Source: Acidimicrobiales bacterium
Lineage (GTDB): Bacteria; Actinomycetota; Acidimicrobiia; Acidimicrobiales; RAAP-2
Assembly (NCBI GenBank): GCA_030044045.1
Contig: JASHWO010000230.1
Location: 1 to 15,669, forward strand
Direction: 5' to 3'
Length of the DNA stretch: 15,669 nt
Shown here: piece by piece, positions 1-10,365 of the stretch
Layout of the letters: every line of letters starts with the position of its first letter
How positions within the stretch are numbered: position 1 is the first letter of the stretch
The notes under the pieces: generated by a model
What the model was told of the DNA's origin: nothing
The model's database searches: none
What the model saw: the letters and a program-made list of their open reading frames with translations, nothing else
Translations under genes and position numbers: made by a program

Positions 1-1290
1 CGCCCGCTCCCGCCCTTCCGGCTGTCTCCCGGCCCGCCCGGGGCCCCAACCCCGGGCTCCGCCGCTGCCGGAGGCCCCAACCCCCGGCCGGCCGTCCTGC
101 CCCTGCCGTTCCGACCCGGGCGCCGGCGCGGTCCGTTCCCCGGTGGGAGCGTGCAGGACCCGCCGGCCGACCCGGCCACTCAAGGCTTCCCGGAGCCGGT
201 CGCCCACCGCCGCCAGGTCGCCGAGAACGGTGGCCCCCTCGTCACCGTCGAGGAGCGGCCGGGCCATGACCTGGAGGGCCCGGAACCGTCCCGGGGTGAC
301 CTCGGCGCCGAGGCTGTCGGTCATGACCTCCTCGACCTCGTGGGCCTCGTCGAATACCACCACGTCGTGCTCGGGGAGCACGGCGCCGCCGCTAGCCAGG
401 TGGGCGCCGTAGAGATGGGTGTTGACCACGACCACGTCGGCCGCGGCTGCCCGGGTCCGGGCGTCCTCGGCGAAGCACTGCCGGCCCGACGGGCAACGGA
501 AGGCGCCGGGACACTCCCGGGGGCCCACGCTGAGCATGGCCCAGGCCCGGGGGTGCGGCTCGAAGGGCAGGTCGCCCCGGTCGCCGGTCTCGGTGGTCCG
601 GGACCACCGGAGGATGGCCCGCACCTGGTCCACCAGCCGGTCCTCGGTGGTGGCCCCGGCACCGGCCCCGCCCGGCCGCGCCGTCCCGTCGTCCGGCTCG
701 GTCCCGCCCGAGCTGCGAGCCCCGCCAACGTCGCCGGGTCCGCTCGGCTCCACGCCGGCCGCCGACTCGTCCAGGTCCAGGGCCAGCACCGGCTCGCTGT
801 CCCCGCCTCCGCCCCCGCCGGGGCCCACCGGGAGCTGCTGCTGGACACCGTGCCCCTCCACCTCGGCCGCCCGCTGCCGGCAGAGGTAGTTACTGCGGCC
901 CTTCAGCACGGCGTAGGTGAAGCCGTCCCCCAAGGCGGCGGCCACCATGGGCAGGTCCTTCTCGGCCAACTGGTCCTGGAGGGCCTTGGTGGCCGTGGCC
1001 ACCACCACTTTCCGGCCGGAGGCCACCGCCGGCACGGCGTAGGCCAGGGACTTGCCGGTGCCGGTGCCCGCCTGCACCACCAGGTGCCGCTCCCCGGCCA
1101 AGGCGGCGGCCACCGCCCGGCACATGGCCTCCTGCTCGGGGCGGCGCTCGCCGGCGGGGAGCCGGCCGGTGACCCGGGCCAGCAGCTCGGCCGCGGTGTC
1201 GGCGTCGGATACAGCGGTGGCGCTGGCCGGGACGGCACTGTCCGGGGACGGGCTGTTGGTGGGTGGGTCCGGCGGCGGGGCGGGAGGCAC
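1..1290 (-). CDS. dinG: DinG/XPD-family ATP-dependent DNA helicase, iron-sulfur type (partial, 3' end off the window)
   Basis: The leftward frame is open from GTG 1290 to the window edge (430 codons; the C-terminal helicase lobe is missing). Visible motifs: a Q-motif-like PEQEAM at residues 51-56, Walker A AGTGTGKS at 74-81, and a DEAH box (VVFDEAHEVEEV) at about 309-320. Four cysteines fit the family's [4Fe-4S] cluster: C137 (GRSNYLC), C259, C265 and C271, the last three spaced C-x5-C-x5-C. The family unwinds DNA 5'-3' and acts on R-loops and damaged templates; that role is inferred. Residues about 152-213 are a Gly/Asp/Pro-rich insert inside the Fe-S region. Residues about 371-430 are another low-complexity stretch and contain the paired-hairpin repeat. 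The start is uncertain: GTG 1290 has GGAGG 12 bases upstream and CATGAT 6 bases upstream, and the frame stays open further upstream. It diverges from uppS. Confidence 0.9.
   Translation of the reverse strand, partial: MPPAPPPDPPTNSPSPDSAVPASATAVSDADTAAELLARVTGRLPAGERRPEQEAMCRAVAAALAGERHLVVQAGTGTGKSLAYAVPAVASGRKVVVATATKALQDQLAEKDLPMVAAALGDGFTYAVLKGRSNYLCRQRAAEVEGHGVQQQLPVGPGGGGGGDSEPVLALDLDESAAGVEPSGPGDVGGARSSGGTEPDDGTARPGGAGAGATTEDRLVDQVRAILRWSRTTETGDRGDLPFEPHPRAWAMLSVGPRECPGAFRCPSGRQCFAEDARTRAAAADVVVVNTHLYGAHLASGGAVLPEHDVVVFDEAHEVEEVMTDSLGAEVTPGRFRALQVMARPLLDGDEGATVLGDLAAVGDRLREALSGRVGRRVLHAPTGERTAPAPGSERQGQDGRPGVGASGSGGARGWGPGRAGRQPEGRERA
36..88 (-). repeat. Paired-hairpin dispersed element, copy A (inside dinG)
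   Basis: Read on the dinG coding strand. Hairpin 1 (88 to 67) has arms GCCGGGGG and CCTCCGGC around loop TTGGGG, with one G-T wobble. A 9-base spacer, AGCGGCGGA, follows. Hairpin 2 (57 to 36) has arms GCCCGGGG and CCCCGGGC around the same loop TTGGGG. Stem lengths (8), loop lengths (6) and spacer length (9) match the copy in hemW at 3256-3308. Similarity extends outward to about 106-26. The element lies in a low-complexity Gly/Arg/Pro-rich stretch of the helicase, so it appears tolerated at protein level. Whether it acts as RNA or DNA structure cannot be told from sequence. Confidence 0.75.
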
Positions 1291-1365
1291 GTCCCGATCA
1301 TGCCTCCGGGCGGGGAGGTACCGGCGCCGGCGCCGGCCTGGTCGCGCCGTGGCGGGGCCAGGCGG

Positions 1366-1371
1366 TAGTTT
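1366..1371 (+). promoter_or_regulatory. -10 box for uppS, leaderless arrangement
   Basis: TAGTTT ends six bases before the GTG at 1378, which places the transcription start at or next to the start codon. This is the layout of leaderless mRNAs common in actinobacteria. There is no Shine-Dalgarno sequence upstream of that GTG. The box therefore helps choose GTG 1378 over later candidates at 1450, 1516 and 1540. No clear -35 is seen. Confidence 0.5.
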
Positions 1372-1377
1372 CGGCCT

Positions 1378-2265
1378 GTGCCCCGGACCGGCCCGCAGCA
1401 GTTGCCGTCCCGACGGGCGCGGCGCGGCGTCGGGTTCCTGGGGGAGGCGGTGCCTACCGGCCCGGGGGCGGCGGCACCGGGTGGTCCGGCTGCCGCGCCG
1501 ACCGGTGCCGCCGTGCCGGCCGGTGAGCCGTCGCCGGCGGTGGACCTGGTCCCGCCCGAGCTCGACCGCAGCCGGGTCCCGGCCCACGTGGCCTGCGTGA
1601 TGGACGGCAACGGCCGCTGGGCCAACCGGCGCAACCTCCCCCGCACCGAGGGCCATGCCGCCGGCGAGGCCGCCCTACTCGACGTGGTCAACGGGGCCCT
1701 GGAGATCGGGGTGCAGTGGCTGACCATGTACGCCTTCTCCACCGAGAACTGGCGCCGCCCGGCCGACGAGGTCCGGTACCTCATGGGGTTCAACGAGTCG
1801 CTGCTCATGCGGCGCCGGGACGAGCTGGACGAGAAGGGGGTGCGCATCCAGTTCGCCGGGCGGCGGGACTGGCGGGTGCCCCGCCGGGTGCTGCGGCGGA
1901 TGGACGAGTCGGTGGCCCAGACCCGGCACAACCGGCGCATGACCCTCACCATGGCCTTCAACTATGGCGGCCGGGCGGAGATCGTCGACGCCGTCCGGGA
2001 CCTGGTGGCCGAGGGCGTCCCGGCCAGCAAGGTGGACGAGCGGGCCATCCGGCGCCACCTCTACTTCCCCGAGATGCCCGACCCCGACCTGGTCATCCGC
2101 ACGTCGGGGGAGCACCGCATCTCCAACTTCCTTTTGTGGGAGATCGCCTACAGCGAGCTGGTCTTCCCCGACGTGCTCTGGCCCGACGTCCGCCGGGGCC
2201 ACCTCTACGCGGCGGTGCTCGAGTACCAGCGCCGCCACCGCCGCTACGGGGGCATCGAGCGGTGA
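1378..2265 (+). CDS. uppS: Isoprenyl transferase (undecaprenyl diphosphate synthase family)
   Basis: A 295-residue cis-prenyltransferase, which condenses isopentenyl diphosphate onto an allylic diphosphate to build the polyprenyl carrier used in peptidoglycan synthesis. Family signatures are clear: HVACVMDGNGRWA at about 70-82 with the Mg-binding Asp76, YAFSTENW near residue 120, FNYGGRAEI in the middle, and the C-terminal block RTSGEHRISNFLLWEIAYSE. The first 55 or so residues are Ala/Pro/Gly-rich and lie outside the conserved domain. GTG 1378 is chosen for its -10 box six bases upstream; a start near 1540 would still give a complete enzyme. The product chain length (C50, C55 or shorter) cannot be read from sequence. 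It leads the uppS-recO-hemW cluster and diverges from dinG. Confidence 0.95.
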   Translation: MPRTGPQQLPSRRARRGVGFLGEAVPTGPGAAAPGGPAAAPTGAAVPAGEPSPAVDLVPPELDRSRVPAHVACVMDGNGRWANRRNLPRTEGHAAGEAALLDVVNGALEIGVQWLTMYAFSTENWRRPADEVRYLMGFNESLLMRRRDELDEKGVRIQFAGRRDWRVPRRVLRRMDESVAQTRHNRRMTLTMAFNYGGRAEIVDAVRDLVAEGVPASKVDERAIRRHLYFPEMPDPDLVIRTSGEHRISNFLLWEIAYSELVFPDVLWPDVRRGHLYAAVLEYQRRHRRYGGIER

Positions 2266-2284
2266 CCACGGCCGGGTTACCACG

Positions 2285-2479
2285 ATGACCGTCACTCGGC
2301 TGGCCGTGGTGCTCGGGGTGCTCCTGGTGGCCGGGGTGTGCTGGCTGGCTGCCGACGGCATGGCCTTCGCCTACGAGCTGCTGGTCAGCCTGGCGGCGCT
2401 GGTGGTGCTGGTGGCCGGAGGGAACTGGCTGGGCGGTCGCCGCTCGTCGCCGGAGCGGCCCGACCCCACCGAGCCGTGA
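2285..2479 (+). CDS. Small two-helix membrane protein, function unknown
   Basis: 64 residues from ATG 2285. Two hydrophobic segments are visible, about residues 5-22 (RLAVVLGVLLVAGVCWLA) and 29-47 (ELLVSLAALVVLVAGGNWL). A short polar loop separates them, and the tail is charged and Pro-rich (GGRRSSPERPDPTEP). The positive GGRR after helix 2 suggests both ends are cytoplasmic. The gene lies 19 bases after uppS and its stop overlaps the recO start (GTGA), so it is very likely translated as part of the cluster. I do not recognise a family. Its position beside uppS invites a link to lipid-carrier metabolism, but nothing in the protein shows that. Confidence 0.75.
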   Translation: MTVTRLAVVLGVLLVAGVCWLAADGMAFAYELLVSLAALVVLVAGGNWLGGRRSSPERPDPTEP

Positions 2480-3210
2480 GCCTCTTCCGCGACCGGGGGG
2501 TGGTGCTCCGCACCTACCGCCTGGGCGAGGCCGACCGCATCGTGGTGCTGCTGACCGAGCACCACGGCAAGGTCCGGGCGGTGGCCAAGGGGGTGCGCCG
2601 CACGGCCAGCAAGTTCGGGGCCCGGCTGGAGCCGCTCAGCCACGTGGCCCTGCTCCTGTGGCAGGGGCGGAGCGAGCTCGACGTGGTGAACCAGGTGGAG
2701 GTGGTCGACCATTTCCGGGCGGTGCGCGAGGACCTCGACCGGGTGGGCCGGGGCCTCTCGCTGCTGGAGGTGGCCGACCAGCTCGCCCAGGAGCGCCACC
2801 CCGACCCCCGGCTCTACGAGATGCTGGTGGGGGCGTTGCGAGCCCTGGCCGACCCGGCCCGGGGTCCGTCCCTGGTGGCGCCGGCCTTCTTCCTGAAGGC
2901 GCTGGTGCTGGAAGGGGCGGGGCCGATCGTCGACGCCTGCGCCTCCTGCGGCGAGCCGGCCGGCCAGGTGGAGCTGGTGGCCTTCGACCTGGTCGAGGGC
3001 GGCGCCCTCTGCCGGCAGTGCCGCCGGGGCCGGCCGGTCTCCCCGGCGGCCTTCGAGGTGGTGCGCCAGATCCTGGGCGGGGCCCTGGGCCGGGTGCTCG
3101 CCGGGCCGGCCCCGTCGTGTGCCGACGAGGTGGCGGCCCTGGCCAACGAGGCCATGGAGGCCCACCTCGACCGCCGGCTGCGCAGCGTGCGCTCGCTGGC
3201 CGGCTACTGA
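2476..3210 (+). CDS. recO: DNA repair protein RecO
   Basis: 244 residues. RecO loads RecA onto SSB-coated single strands with RecR in the RecFOR pathway. The N-terminal OB-fold signature is seen in SLFRDRGVVLRTYRLGEADRIVVLLTEHHGKVRAVAKGVRR, where family members share the pattern LR-x-GE-D-i-v-LT-xx-G-k-AKG-r. A helical middle follows. A zinc-finger-like set of cysteines is at C155, C158, C179 and C182 (CASC...CRQC), which is usual in actinobacterial and Deinococcus RecO but absent in E. coli. The GTG start at 2476 overlaps the preceding stop by four bases (GTGA), implying translational coupling. Its own stop overlaps the hemW start (TGATG). Confidence 0.95.
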   Translation: MSLFRDRGVVLRTYRLGEADRIVVLLTEHHGKVRAVAKGVRRTASKFGARLEPLSHVALLLWQGRSELDVVNQVEVVDHFRAVREDLDRVGRGLSLLEVADQLAQERHPDPRLYEMLVGALRALADPARGPSLVAPAFFLKALVLEGAGPIVDACASCGEPAGQVELVAFDLVEGGALCRQCRRGRPVSPAAFEVVRQILGGALGRVLAGPAPSCADEVAALANEAMEAHLDRRLRSVRSLAGY

Positions 3211-4394
3211 TGCCGCCTGGCCCCCCATCCGGGCCAAGAAGTGCCAGCACAGCCGGCGTGGGGCAGGGGCCCCACGCACCGGAGGAGGATGGGGTTGGGG
3301 CCCCATCCGGGCTGGGGGTATATGTGCACGTGCCGTTCTGCCGGCGCCGCTGCGACTACTGCGCCTTCGCCACCTACACCGACCGGGACCACCTGATGGC
3401 CCGCTACGTCGACGCCTGCCTGGCCGAGCTGGCCCGGGCCCGGGACGCCAGCGACCTGCCGGCGGCCACCAGCGTGTTCTTCGGCGGGGGCACGCCCTCC
3501 CGCCTGCCGGCCGGGGACCTGTGCCGGATCCTGGCCGCCGTCCCTCTGGCCCCGGGCGCCGAGGTCACCGTGGAGTGCAACCCGGAGGACGCCTCGGTCG
3601 ACCGGTTCGCCGCCTACCGGGAAGCCGGGGTGACCCGGATGTCGTTCGGCGTGCAGTCCACCGCGGCCCACGTGCTGGCGGCGTTGGGCCGGCGGCACGA
3701 CCCGGCGTCGGTGGACCGGGCCGTGGGCCTGGCCGTGGCCGCCGGGTTCCCCACCTTCAACCTCGACCTCATCTTCGGCGCCGCCGGCGAGACCGACGAG
3801 GACTGGGCCCGCACCCTGGCCCGGGTAGTGGCCCTGGGGGCGCCCCACGTGAGTGCCTACGCGCTGACGGTGGAGCCGGGCACCCCGCTGGCCGCCGACC
3901 GGGCCCGCCACCCGGACGACGACGTGCAGGCACGCCGCTACGAGCTGGCCGAGGAGGTGCTCGGGGCCGCCGGCCTCCACTGGGAGGAGGTGTCGAACTG
4001 GGCGCGGCCCGGCCACGGCTGCCGCCACAACCGCCTGTACTGGCGCCAGGGCGACTACCTGGGGATCGGCTCGGCCGCCCACTCGCACCGGGCCGGCCGG
4101 CGCTGGTGGCACGTGCGCACGCCGGACCGGTACGTGGCGCTGGTGGCGGCCGGCCGGTCGCCGGTGGCCGGGGAGGAGGTGCTGGGCCCGGCCGAGCGGG
4201 CGTTCGAGCGGCTGGCGTTGTCGCTCCGCACCCCCGACGGGGTGCCCGGCAGCGCCCTGCCCGACCTCCCGGAGCTGGCGGGGCTGGTCGAGCGCGGGGA
4301 CGGCCGGGCCGTGCTCACCGTGCGGGGGCGGCTGCTGGCCAACGCCGTCACTGCCCACCTGCGGACGGTGGCGGGGGAAGCCGCCACGGAGTGA
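3210..4394 (+). CDS. hemW: Radical-SAM HemW-type protein (coproporphyrinogen III oxidase-like)
   Basis: 394 residues. The radical-SAM cluster motif C-x3-C-x2-C is at C44, C48 and C51 (HVPFCRRRCDYCAF), and the glycine-rich FFGGGTP loop is at about 90-96. Further family blocks are VECNPED, SFGVQS, NLDLIFGAAGET, VSAYALTVEPGTPLA, and a C-terminal HemN_C-like region with NWARPGHGCRHNRLYWRQGDYLGIGSAAHS. HemW proteins bind heme and are thought to deliver it; older annotation calls them oxygen-independent CPO, but CxxxCxxCxF is typical of HemW. The start at 3210 overlaps the recO stop (TGATG). The first 35 residues are not conserved and are encoded by the paired-hairpin repeat region. A later start, such as GTG 3322, would cut into the conserved block, so the extension is probably real. 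Confidence 0.92.
   Translation: MPPGPPSGPRSASTAGVGQGPHAPEEDGVGAPSGLGVYVHVPFCRRRCDYCAFATYTDRDHLMARYVDACLAELARARDASDLPAATSVFFGGGTPSRLPAGDLCRILAAVPLAPGAEVTVECNPEDASVDRFAAYREAGVTRMSFGVQSTAAHVLAALGRRHDPASVDRAVGLAVAAGFPTFNLDLIFGAAGETDEDWARTLARVVALGAPHVSAYALTVEPGTPLAADRARHPDDDVQARRYELAEEVLGAAGLHWEEVSNWARPGHGCRHNRLYWRQGDYLGIGSAAHSHRAGRRWWHVRTPDRYVALVAAGRSPVAGEEVLGPAERAFERLALSLRTPDGVPGSALPDLPELAGLVERGDGRAVLTVRGRLLANAVTAHLRTVAGEAATE
3215..3234 (+). repeat. Partial third copy of the hairpin element's right end
   Basis: CCCCATCCGGGC at 3223-3234 is identical to 3301-3312, which is the right arm of hairpin 2 plus its flank in hemW. Aligned over 20 bases the two stretches match at about 15 positions. The copy lies 78 bases upstream and lacks the left arm. 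It could pair instead with the left arm at 3287-3294 (GGATGGGG), giving an alternative fold. Confidence 0.45.
3256..3308 (+). repeat. Paired-hairpin dispersed element, copy B (N-terminal extension of hemW)
   Basis: Hairpin 1 (3256-3277) has arms GCGTGGGG and CCCCACGC around loop CAGGGG. A 9-base spacer, ACCGGAGGA, follows. Hairpin 2 (3287-3308) has arms GGATGGGG and CCCCATCC around loop TTGGGG. Aligned without gaps to the dinG copy over 81 bases (3238-3318 against 106-26), I count about 59 identities. Five stem pairs differ on both sides and still pair: two in hairpin 1 and three in hairpin 2. Phase relative to codons differs between the host genes, so this is nucleic-acid rather than protein homology. 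The G runs at 3291-3318 could also form a quadruplex. Confidence 0.75.
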
Positions 4395-9092: not shown

Positions 9093-10365
9093 CCGAGGTC
9101 CACCCCGACGGGAGTGAGGTCGGCGTGCCCCTGAACCCACCAGAGACGATACCTGTGAGGTTCGCGCCGGCGAGCTTGGCGCCCGCCAAGTCGGTGTCGG
9201 AGAGGTTGGCACCGTTGAGGTCGGCGCCGGACAGGTCGGCGCCGGCGAGGTTCGCGCCGCTGAAGTCGGCGTCTGTCGCCGTGGGCGAGATGAAGGACGT
9301 GTCCCGGAGGTCGGCGCCGGACAAGTTGGCGTGGGTCAGCTCGGCGCCGATGCCATCGGCGCCGAGCATGTCGGCGTTGACCAGATTGGCGGAGGAGAGG
9401 TCGGCTCCGAGGAGGTCGGCGCCGGAGAGGTCGGCACCGGCCAGGTTTGCCCCGGCCAGATCGGTCTTGGCATAGTCCACGCCGGCCAGGTCGGCGCCGG
9501 ACAGGTCGGCGCCGGAGAGATTGGCGCCCGGCCCCGCCAGGTACCCGTCGACGACGCTGAACCCAAGGGGGAACTGGGCTGGCACCGTCGTGATGCCGCC
9601 GGAGACCACACCTGTCGTGGTGGCGCCGGTGAGGTCGGCGTTCGTGAGGTCGGTGCCGGTGAGGGTGGCGTCGGCGAGGTCTGCGCCGGTGAGGTCGACG
9701 CCTTTCAGGTCCACGCCGGAGAGGTCGACGCCGGAGAGGTCGACGCCCGGCCCCGCCAGGTACCCGCCGACGACGCCGAACCCGGGGGGGAGCTTGGCCG
9801 GCCCGGTCGTGATGCCGCCGGAGGTCACACCCGTCATGGTGGCACCGGTGAGGTCGGCGTTCTCGAGGTCCGCGTCTTGCAGGCTCGCGTCGTAGAGGTT
9901 GGCGTACGCCAGGTCAGCGCCGGTGAGCGTGGCGCCGGTGAGCGTGCTGCCGGAGAGGTCGGCGCCGAGGAGGTCGGCGTGCGCCAGGTCCGCTCCGGAC
10001 AGGTTGGCCCCCTGCAGGTCGACGCCCTCGATGTCGACGTGCTGGAGATCCGCACCGCCGAGGTCGGCGCCGGCCAGGTCGGCTCCCGGGTAGAGCAGGT
10101 GGCCGTCGACAGACACGCCGGGAACGACGTGGTGGCGCCGCGGATGGGAGGTCACCCGGTACCGGTCGAGCACCCCACCGCCGCTCGACGCCGGGGCCTT
10201 CCAGGCGACGGTCGCGCTGTGGTTGCCGGCGACGGCCTGCACCGACCTGGGGGCGCTCGGGGGGGAAGCGAACGTCGCCCCGGCCGACGACGTACCGTCC
10301 AGCATTGGCACGGCCGAGATCAGGGTCGCCACGATCACGGAGATGACCACGTGCCTGTCGCGCAT
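9064..10365 (-). CDS. Secreted pentapeptide-repeat protein with N-terminal Fn3-like stub
   Basis: 433 residues from ATG 10365, preceded by AAAGGGGG nine bases upstream. A signal peptide is likely (MRDRHVVISVIVATLISAVP..., cleavage near SSAGA at 26-30). Residues 36-75 (PPSAPRSVQAVAGNHSATVAWKAP...GGVLDRYRVTSHP) look like the first strands of a fibronectin type III domain, but the rest is missing. From residue 93 it is almost entirely A(D/N)LxG pentapeptides, which fold as a right-handed square beta-helix. The repeats fall in three blocks separated by a recurring linker of about 33 residues, SGGITT.PA.LP.GF.VV.GYLAGPG (about 182-208 and 255-281), and the protein ends with a related SGGF...LPSGWTSVNGALVPPG. 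Function is unknown. The gene overlaps the kinase by 29 bases and diverges from the mannosidase. Confidence 0.85.
   Translation of the reverse strand: MRDRHVVISVIVATLISAVPMLDGTSSAGATFASPPSAPRSVQAVAGNHSATVAWKAPASSGGGVLDRYRVTSHPRRHHVVPGVSVDGHLLYPGADLAGADLGGADLQHVDIEGVDLQGANLSGADLAHADLLGADLSGSTLTGATLTGADLAYANLYDASLQDADLENADLTGATMTGVTSGGITTGPAKLPPGFGVVGGYLAGPGVDLSGVDLSGVDLKGVDLTGADLADATLTGTDLTNADLTGATTTGVVSGGITTVPAQFPLGFSVVDGYLAGPGANLSGADLSGADLAGVDYAKTDLAGANLAGADLSGADLLGADLSSANLVNADMLGADGIGAELTHANLSGADLRDTSFISPTATDADFSGANLAGADLSGADLNGANLSDTDLAGAKLAGANLTGIVSGGFRGTPTSLPSGWTSVNGALVPPG
9528..9853 (-). repeat. Internal duplicated module in the pentapeptide gene
   Basis: The stretch from about 9528 to 9640 (linker plus start of the next pentapeptide block) recurs at about 9745-9857, 217 bases away. 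I judge the two to be very similar at DNA level by eye. Each encodes the SGGITT...GYLAGPG linker. This points to tandem duplication of a unit of about 72 residues (block plus linker) rather than slow divergence of single pentapeptides. Confidence 0.6.

Follow-up and report, generated by a model that had tools for sequence, protein, structure and literature searches.

Several described families of short repeats resemble the element considered here, a unit of two hairpins that occurs as copies A and B in a 15,669-nucleotide contig of an Acidimicrobiales bacterium (JASHWO010000230.1; this whole stretch is called the window below). REPs of the GTAG and CGTC kinds and BIMEs, as they appear in those sections of PMC3733652 and PMC2817692 that are drawn on here, are short multi-copy palindromes that are mostly intergenic and sometimes lie in genes, and the same holds for the element. 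The CGTC REPs are in these sections without a known transposase, a lack that they share with the element, while RAYT enzymes (REP-associated tyrosine transposases) are the proposed movers of the GTAG kind and both kinds are reported mainly from γ- and α-proteobacteria (PMC3733652, same sections). According to the same extracts (PMC3733652, PMC2817692) REPs mostly form head-to-head dimers, whereas the element is a head-to-tail heterodimer with a conserved GGAGGAG linker and without the GTAG tag. For Acidimicrobium ferrooxidans, which its name places in the group, Table 3 of the RepRanger paper gives 2,283 REP candidates and 152 RITs (PMC12306157, cited for this part of it). These candidates are a tool's count of short palindromes (10–71 nt in E. 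coli; PMC12306157, likewise in part), and an overlap with the element is possible.

PATEs of Haloquadratum, in the portion of PMC3119063 considered, resemble the element in having no terminal inverted repeats, in carrying palindromes close to their ends and in being too short for a gene, and also in the absence of a clear target duplication (seen for the element at one site), a heterogeneous part beyond the palindrome and a short terminal motif. The absence of terminal inverted repeats, the palindromes near both ends and the absence of a clear target duplication were found in the consensus of the element together with one insertion site. The element differs from PATEs in its host group and its sequence, in having two different hairpins at a short and nearly fixed distance and in its head-to-tail arrays, and no IS605-type relative turned up. 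MIRUs of mycobacteria are, like the element, actinobacterial repeats with tandem units that lie at gene junctions; their unit size is similar to that of the element, they occupy DTGA sites and their ends overlap the codons of neighbouring genes. RPEs (Rickettsia palindromic elements) insert mainly within protein genes. As far as the cited lines of PMC3733652 describe them, RPEs share with the element a palindromic structure that can be read through in genes. Membership in the MIRU family was considered because of the operon-joint sites of the element and was rejected, since MIRUs are described as lacking dyad symmetry and following the direction of the flanking open reading frame (ORF) (PMC4473831, in the excerpt used), whereas the element has two covarying hairpins and a strand distribution of 18/19. 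No such element in Acidimicrobiia was found described in the literature covered, which comprised titles and abstract openings of the best-ranked papers, with subscription journals mostly outside reach. Taken together, we regard the element as a real REP-like or PATE-like family of Acidimicrobiales with an unusual fixed head-to-tail unit of two hairpins.

Two copies of a paired-hairpin unit in the window

Copy A lies on the minus strand at positions 36–88, inside a dinG ORF, and consists of hairpin 1 (88–67), a 9-nt linker (66–58) and hairpin 2 (57–36). Copy B lies on the plus strand at 3256–3308, with hairpin 1 at 3256–3277, the 9-nt linker ACCGGAGGA at 3278–3286 and hairpin 2 at 3287–3308. 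An initial sequence-only reading of the window had given these coordinates and a layout of two 8-6-8 hairpins separated by 9 bases, and both were exact, as were the four loops (three TTGGGG and one CAGGGG). The 53-nt cores of copies A and B fold as drawn, at −37.7 and −37.0 kcal/mol respectively, and are identical at 38 of 53 bases; over 81 ungapped bases, for which about 59 identities had been counted, the better of the two frames tried gave 58 and the other 56. Five stem pairs had been said to have changed both bases between A and B without loss of pairing, and our own reading of the sequences recovered two of these in hairpin 1 and three in hairpin 2. That the host genes read the two copies in different reading frames is borne out as well. 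Among the inverted pairs listed for the window, 28–104/3240–3316 ranked first in length with 77 nt (74%), followed by one of 48 nt, and two such hairpins at a spacing of 31 nt matched the window three times over both strands (copy A once and, by our own reading, copy B on both strands) but never in 100 dinucleotide shuffles of it.

Sixteen copies served to build a covariance model, R2, which matched copy A at 23–101 (57.1 bits) and copy B at 3243–3321 (84.9 bits). From the left-end motif ACAG(CC) to the GGGC past hairpin 2, copy B extends over 3249–3312 on the plus strand, which corresponds approximately to a complete unit minus the tail. A remnant stands 5′ of it at 3223–3248 on the same strand, composed of a hairpin 2 3′ arm, CCCCATCC (3223–3230), and a tail, GGGCCAAGAAGTGCCAGC (3231–3248); a repeat search returned a 12-nt direct repeat here, and locus L162 has a similar remnant of 3′ arm plus tail. 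Because the end of a hairpin 2 and a tail precede copy B, this copy looks like the survivor of an array of two units, and the remnant would be the end of a lost tandem unit. The window is the entire contig and ends 35 nt beyond copy A, so that the insertion of copy A into dinG is visible from one side only.

A dispersed family in Acidimicrobiales

The dispersal of the element was first hinted at by protein searches, and further copies were sought with a hairpin 1 pattern derived from the element peptides of three proteins that are known here as protein sequences only. P0018 is a HemW from another contig with an N-terminal extension similar to that of the window HemW; a search of 298 genomes for the one that encodes it gave a best match of 72% and so did not find it. 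P0121, which has a 2-oxoglutarate dehydrogenase N-terminus and E2 acyltransferase domains, carries 19 identical residues between the two parts. The third, P0122 (481 aa), is a RluD-type pseudouridine synthase whose ORF continues into about eight tandem units (counted by eye) read on the other strand, and its long C-terminus, rich in Gly, Pro and Arg, comes from this element array. Among 397 genomes sampled from the order of the nearest relative, G001 (Acidimicrobiales by record titles), the pattern was found at 18 places in 8 genomes and its reversed control at none.

The R2 model with strict filters (E ≤ 0.001) matched 35 of these 397 genomes and left 362 without a match, and a deeper search of 32 of the 35 carriers (G282, G293 and G498 were left out) returned 301 matches, with a maximum of 54 per genome. 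The matches were distributed as 54 in G243, 44 in G306, 28 in G347, 22 in G236, 19 in G221, 15 in G251 and 1 to 13 in the other carriers; all counts are lower bounds, with 11 candidates scored per genome under the stricter filters of the wide search and 146 in the deeper one. This search of relatives established the dispersed family that the sequence-only reading had proposed, and the membership of copies A and B in a widespread dispersed family of two-hairpin repeats in uncultured actinobacteria is well supported.

Run against 172 genomes from the family of G001, a strict pair pattern gave a single match, on a 12-nt tandem repeat in G003, and GGGGTTGGGGCC by itself showed no enrichment relative to its reversed control across 30 genomes. 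The G003 locus (L091, contig C46) has three tandem copies of GGGGTTGGGGCC with a period of 12 nt, and the matched stretch gives no hint of a two-hairpin unit. The plasmids searched for the element held no match, and Rfam 15 gave 0 matches above the gathering threshold for the window and 8 of 60 carrier stretches. Several copies were located at contig ends (e.g. G347:C76:9-88, G347:C138:1-80 and G306:C76:15-95), in line with what a repeat that disrupts assembly would cause, and the element is probably the reason why contigs of these metagenome assemblies break at some places.

Anatomy and covariation of the unit

Unit anatomy was described from the window and 60 stretches of carriers G243, G347, G306, G211, G240, G221 and G251, with 80 R2 matches including the two window copies. 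For placement relative to genes 75 of these were used (5 weak or cut-off matches were dropped), and for left-end counts 73 (2 had no recognisable left end). The order of parts in the unit is a left end ACGG, hairpin 1, a linker ending in GGAGGAG, hairpin 2, CGGG, a tail and a right end AC[A/G]G or similar. The whole is about 70–87 nt long, of which the tail makes up about 10–25 nt and differs between genomes, resembling GGGCNNNTGTCACAG in G243 and GGGNNATGAGCACAG in part of G306, being of the form ...CCGCCAGCAAAC... in G347 and a similar CGACCAGCAAAC in one copy of G316. Arrays run head-to-tail, the next ACGG following directly after the tail at a spacing between neighbouring units of about 70–87 nt, and many single units and array ends terminate in ACAG or a similar motif, while some do not. 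In five G243 loci (L183, L187, L190, L192 and L193) the loop of hairpin 2 is long and holds a tail-like stretch (e.g. CCAAGTGGGTGTCATA), as though a tail had entered it.

The orientation of the two hairpins can be judged from the 18 hits of the hairpin 1 pattern, which required no partner: judged by eye, 15 had a hairpin 2 of the same orientation next in line, two were the second hairpin itself (one with its partner N-masked) and one was a unit without hairpin 2. Counts from R2 do not test dimer orientation, as this model finds only the head-to-tail arrangement.

An alignment of 79 distinct rows, fitted to the R2 model and thereby favouring covariation, showed pairing in 98.3% of cells and changes on both sides in 9 of 16 pairs. 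The cells changed on both sides numbered 154 in comparison to a shuffled mean of 40.1, and the covariation score was 0.368 in comparison to 0.124 for shuffled rows and 0.080 for the best slid version. A MAFFT alignment of 16 copies showed covariation at 6 pairs and 15 cells, and none of 500 shuffles reached either value; this signal comes mainly from hairpin 2, since the search pattern had fixed hairpin 1 in 14 of the 16 copies. Conservation was 0.92–1.0 in the loop GGGG, 0.84–1.0 in the linker GGAGGAG and 0.86–0.99 in the left end ACGG, and the outer stem pairs varied. The left-end 5-mer was GACGG (complement CCGTC), the end compatible with CGTC REPs, in only 14 of 73 copies, and CACGG in 27; GTAG was found neither among these 5-mers nor in the consensus, where the linker is GGAGGAG. 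Two pairs of close G runs, a G-quadruplex candidate, were present in 60 of the 80 rows.

Placement relative to genes

Genes were predicted with our own codon-composition caller, which is rough and uncurated. By these predictions 64 of the 75 placed copies were intergenic (37 between tandem, 15 between convergent and 12 between divergent genes), 8 were inside an ORF, 2 overlapped an end and 1 was at an edge, while 7.5% of random 54-nt windows of the same loci (1,838/24,400) were fully intergenic. As the loci had been chosen for holding elements, only the comparison of gap types is meaningful, and here the element was present in 15 of 57 convergent gaps versus 43 of 363 other gaps (odds ratio 2.66, p = 0.006). 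With respect to neighbouring genes 18 copies were on the same strand and 19 on the opposite one, and this placement on either strand together with the strand-specific conservation points to recognition of the element as DNA. The stop codon of the upstream same-strand gene ended 0–3 nt from the first base of the element in 5 of 73 copies, and unit ends clearly overlapped the start or stop codons of neighbours at the L208 joint and at the atpF-atpH joint.

Copy A in dinG is therefore atypical, as most copies lie between genes. Insertion into genes in the manner of RPEs, one of the families to which the sequence-only reading had likened the element, is not its main habit, in which it differs from RPEs, with only 8 of 75 placed copies inside predicted ORFs. 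The likeness to REP and RPE families drawn in that reading is fair in its REP-like part, whereas the gene-insertion habit of RPEs and the head-to-head geometry of REP dimers do not apply.

Occupied and empty sites

At a trpE-like/pabC-like joint (names by our own reading of the translations) G306 carries one unit of 74 nt, giving ...CGTGA[74 nt]AGGTTTGG..., where G277 and G184 are uninterrupted (...CGTGAAGGT...), and R2 had no match at the corresponding loci of three relatives of G306. In the empty joint GTGA contains both the stop codon of the upstream gene and, overlapping it, the start codon of the downstream one; in G306 the upstream TGA is retained, and an ATG within the element tail (GGGCGATGAACA) can serve as the downstream start. 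The ends of the insert share one ambiguous A, and there is no clear target duplication. The atpF-atpH joint (own reading) contains two units in G306, the tail of which (ATGAGCACAG) offers a start codon, in comparison to no recognisable unit in G240, G184, G332 and G355 and a different 91-nt stretch without R2 match in G277. A third site, S3, at another atp joint, holds two units in G306 (L272) and a degraded, interrupted relative in G240 and G277 (25.3 and 28.4 bits; L303:10417-10540 and L304:5008-5131). Site S1 has alignable flanks, but its spacers have diverged too far to define a junction to the base. For G243 and G211 there are no congeners in which to see empty sites, as a single genome represents the genus of the former and a single one the family of the latter.

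Origin and probable mobility of the element

We consider it likely that A and B are copies of a non-autonomous mobile DNA repeat of about 70–87 nt, which is probably moved by an enzyme. A non-autonomous element that is read as a single strand fits the palindromes near both ends, the absence of inverted terminal repeats, the short terminal motifs and the absence of a clear target duplication, traits with which PATEs and related IS605-type elements are also described (PMC3119063). In such a mechanism the hairpins and invariant single-strand parts would be read by a trans-acting enzyme acting on single-stranded DNA, much as HUH transposases do at the ends of IS200/IS605 elements and PATEs, and arrays would grow or shrink through slippage or recombination between units. 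Insertions would survive mainly between genes, where, as we propose, start and stop codons in the tail keep the neighbouring genes readable, and rare in-frame insertions would give rise to element-derived protein segments such as those in the window. Selection together with the tail codons can account for the persistence of copies between genes and at operon joints, and target specificity is not needed.

A number of observations weigh against the mobile-repeat explanation. No candidate enzyme emerged: the PF01797 family (Y1_Tnp, RAYT/IS200) was above cut-off in 0 of 32 carriers, with one sub-cut-off fragment in G251, and in 6 of 22 other genomes, not all of which were checked for the element; the carriers are mostly draft metagenome assemblies of untold completeness, and since incomplete assemblies easily lose multi-copy genes this result lowers the likelihood of a Y1 enzyme without excluding it. 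The evidence from presence and absence is that of G306 versus its relatives, outside the window's own genome, and the base-level junction is that of one site between species with 71–78% identical flanks. At this junction one TGA precedes the insert (CGTGA) and another lies close to the right end of the insert (GATGAACA), and a small duplication with three further bases is conceivable, while a gain rather than a loss of the unit would rest on the three family members without it. The empty joint in G240 (L243) reads GTGA-GCGGCGCC-AAGG, and GCGGCGCC, which is similar to the initial 8 bases of the unit in G306 (ACGGCGCC), may be an excision scar or may be due to chance. The degraded copies shared at S3 imply that some insertions are old and that part of the spread is vertical, and G184, without a match in the wide search, shows one weak match to R2, of 25 bits, close to the end of a contig (L305:11748-11808). 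Many copies also have flanking direct repeats, which we read as unit tails. Their interpretation as target duplications was rejected, as the same stretch recurs as the unit tail in arrays and the clean empty site shows none.

Other explanations can be compared with that of a mobile single-strand-read repeat. A special case of it, possible yet doubtful, is that the element is a PATE-type remnant, formed from the fused ends of an IS200/IS605-like transposon whose Y1 transposase has since been lost from most carriers. The absence of terminal inverted repeats, the palindrome near each end, the short terminal motif, the variable tail and, at one site, the absence of a clear target duplication all agree with what the available part of PMC3119063 lists for PATEs; an IS200-type transposase was, however, above cut-off in none of the 32 carriers, and no full-length IS605-type parent turned up in them, though none was systematically sought and TnpB was not searched. 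We hold as rather unlikely, and put forward tentatively, that this is an orphan single-strand-type element of Acidimicrobiales with a non-Y1/RAYT enzyme, no target duplication and, carried along in the tail, a start or stop codon that would let it settle in operon joints (recO-hemW and, by our own reading, atpF-atpH and the trpE-pabC-like joint) and leave them intact. The short palindromes, many copies, extragenic placement and over-representation in convergent gaps would also be expected of a RAYT-mobilised REP/BIME family, in which a RAYT would have amplified hairpin 2, with GGAG at its foot, as the REP, and the passage cited from PMC3733652 places REPs between unidirectional and convergent ORFs. 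This is improbable given the absence of PF01797 above cut-off from all 32 carriers, which leaves the RAYT link suggested by the sequence-only reading without support, and the absence of GTAG from the left-end motifs and the consensus.

Strong hairpins, intergenic placement and the excess in convergent gaps could alternatively reflect a cis-acting RNA between genes (a terminator, mRNA stabiliser or attenuator) that was selected and copied by duplication. The orientation to genes is nevertheless random (18 versus 19) despite the strand-specific linker and loops, the consensus has no U tract, 12 of 75 copies lie between divergent genes and the stretches compared with Rfam had no match, so that a role of this kind is hardly probable. 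A chance similarity of low-complexity GC sequence had been named in the sequence-only reading as a possible refutation. The region is indeed GC-rich, and GGGGTTGGGGCCCC (≤2 mismatches) had a mean of 1.38 occurrences per shuffled window, with 15 of 200 shuffles reaching the 4 observed. The absence of paired hairpins from 100 shuffles, the 18 pattern hits versus 0 in the reversed control and the covariation refute it, and the likelihood left to it is negligible.

Host genes in the window

The dinG-like helicase ORF occupies positions 1–1290 on the minus strand and runs off the contig end, with copy A at about residues 401–418. A relative was encoded in 43 of 80 loci. Among the 40 listed, 39 have a match that extends no further than residue 399, and that of L027 reaches 411, which is why orthologues could not be aligned across copy A. 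The recO gene (2476–3210, plus strand) has a stop codon TGA (3208–3210) that overlaps an ATG at 3210, at which the hemW ORF (3210–4394, plus strand) begins. If this ATG is the start, the remnant and copy B give most of the 37 residues before YVHVPFC; the codon-based gene caller placed the start at 3324, downstream of copy B, and copy B is within the hemW ORF only with a start at ATG 3210 or GTG 3258. Of the insertions in dinG and hemW that had been described, the first stands, as copy A is in the dinG ORF, whereas copy B is at the recO-hemW junction and the start of hemW is ambiguous.

The closest HemW loci were those of metagenome assemblies labelled Acidimicrobiaceae, Acidimicrobiales or Actinomycetes, the best with 78% identity, and the closest HemW protein had 80%. 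Pattern, BLAST and covariance model searches did not find the element in the 80 hemW loci of relatives (1.05 Mb), where the best R2 match outside the window had an E value of 0.049 in comparison to 1.3e-15 and 1.5e-9 for the window copies, and among the recO-hemW junctions listed for relatives no element-like stretch was found. Elsewhere in the window, a minus-strand ORF at 9132–10072 contains a repeat with a 15-nt period (31 registers in the repeat finder) that appears pentapeptide-repeat-like by eye.

Implications

In summary, the element is a multi-copy family with a fixed head-to-tail unit of two hairpins in a little-studied actinobacterial order, in which a RAYT was not found, and it provides a system for seeking the mobiliser of orphan REP-like elements. 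It illustrates a way in which a repeat can come to lie in operon joints with translation preserved. It also accounts for odd glycine/proline-rich extensions of proteins, namely those of HemW, of the 2-oxoglutarate dehydrogenase/E2-type protein and of the RluD-type protein.

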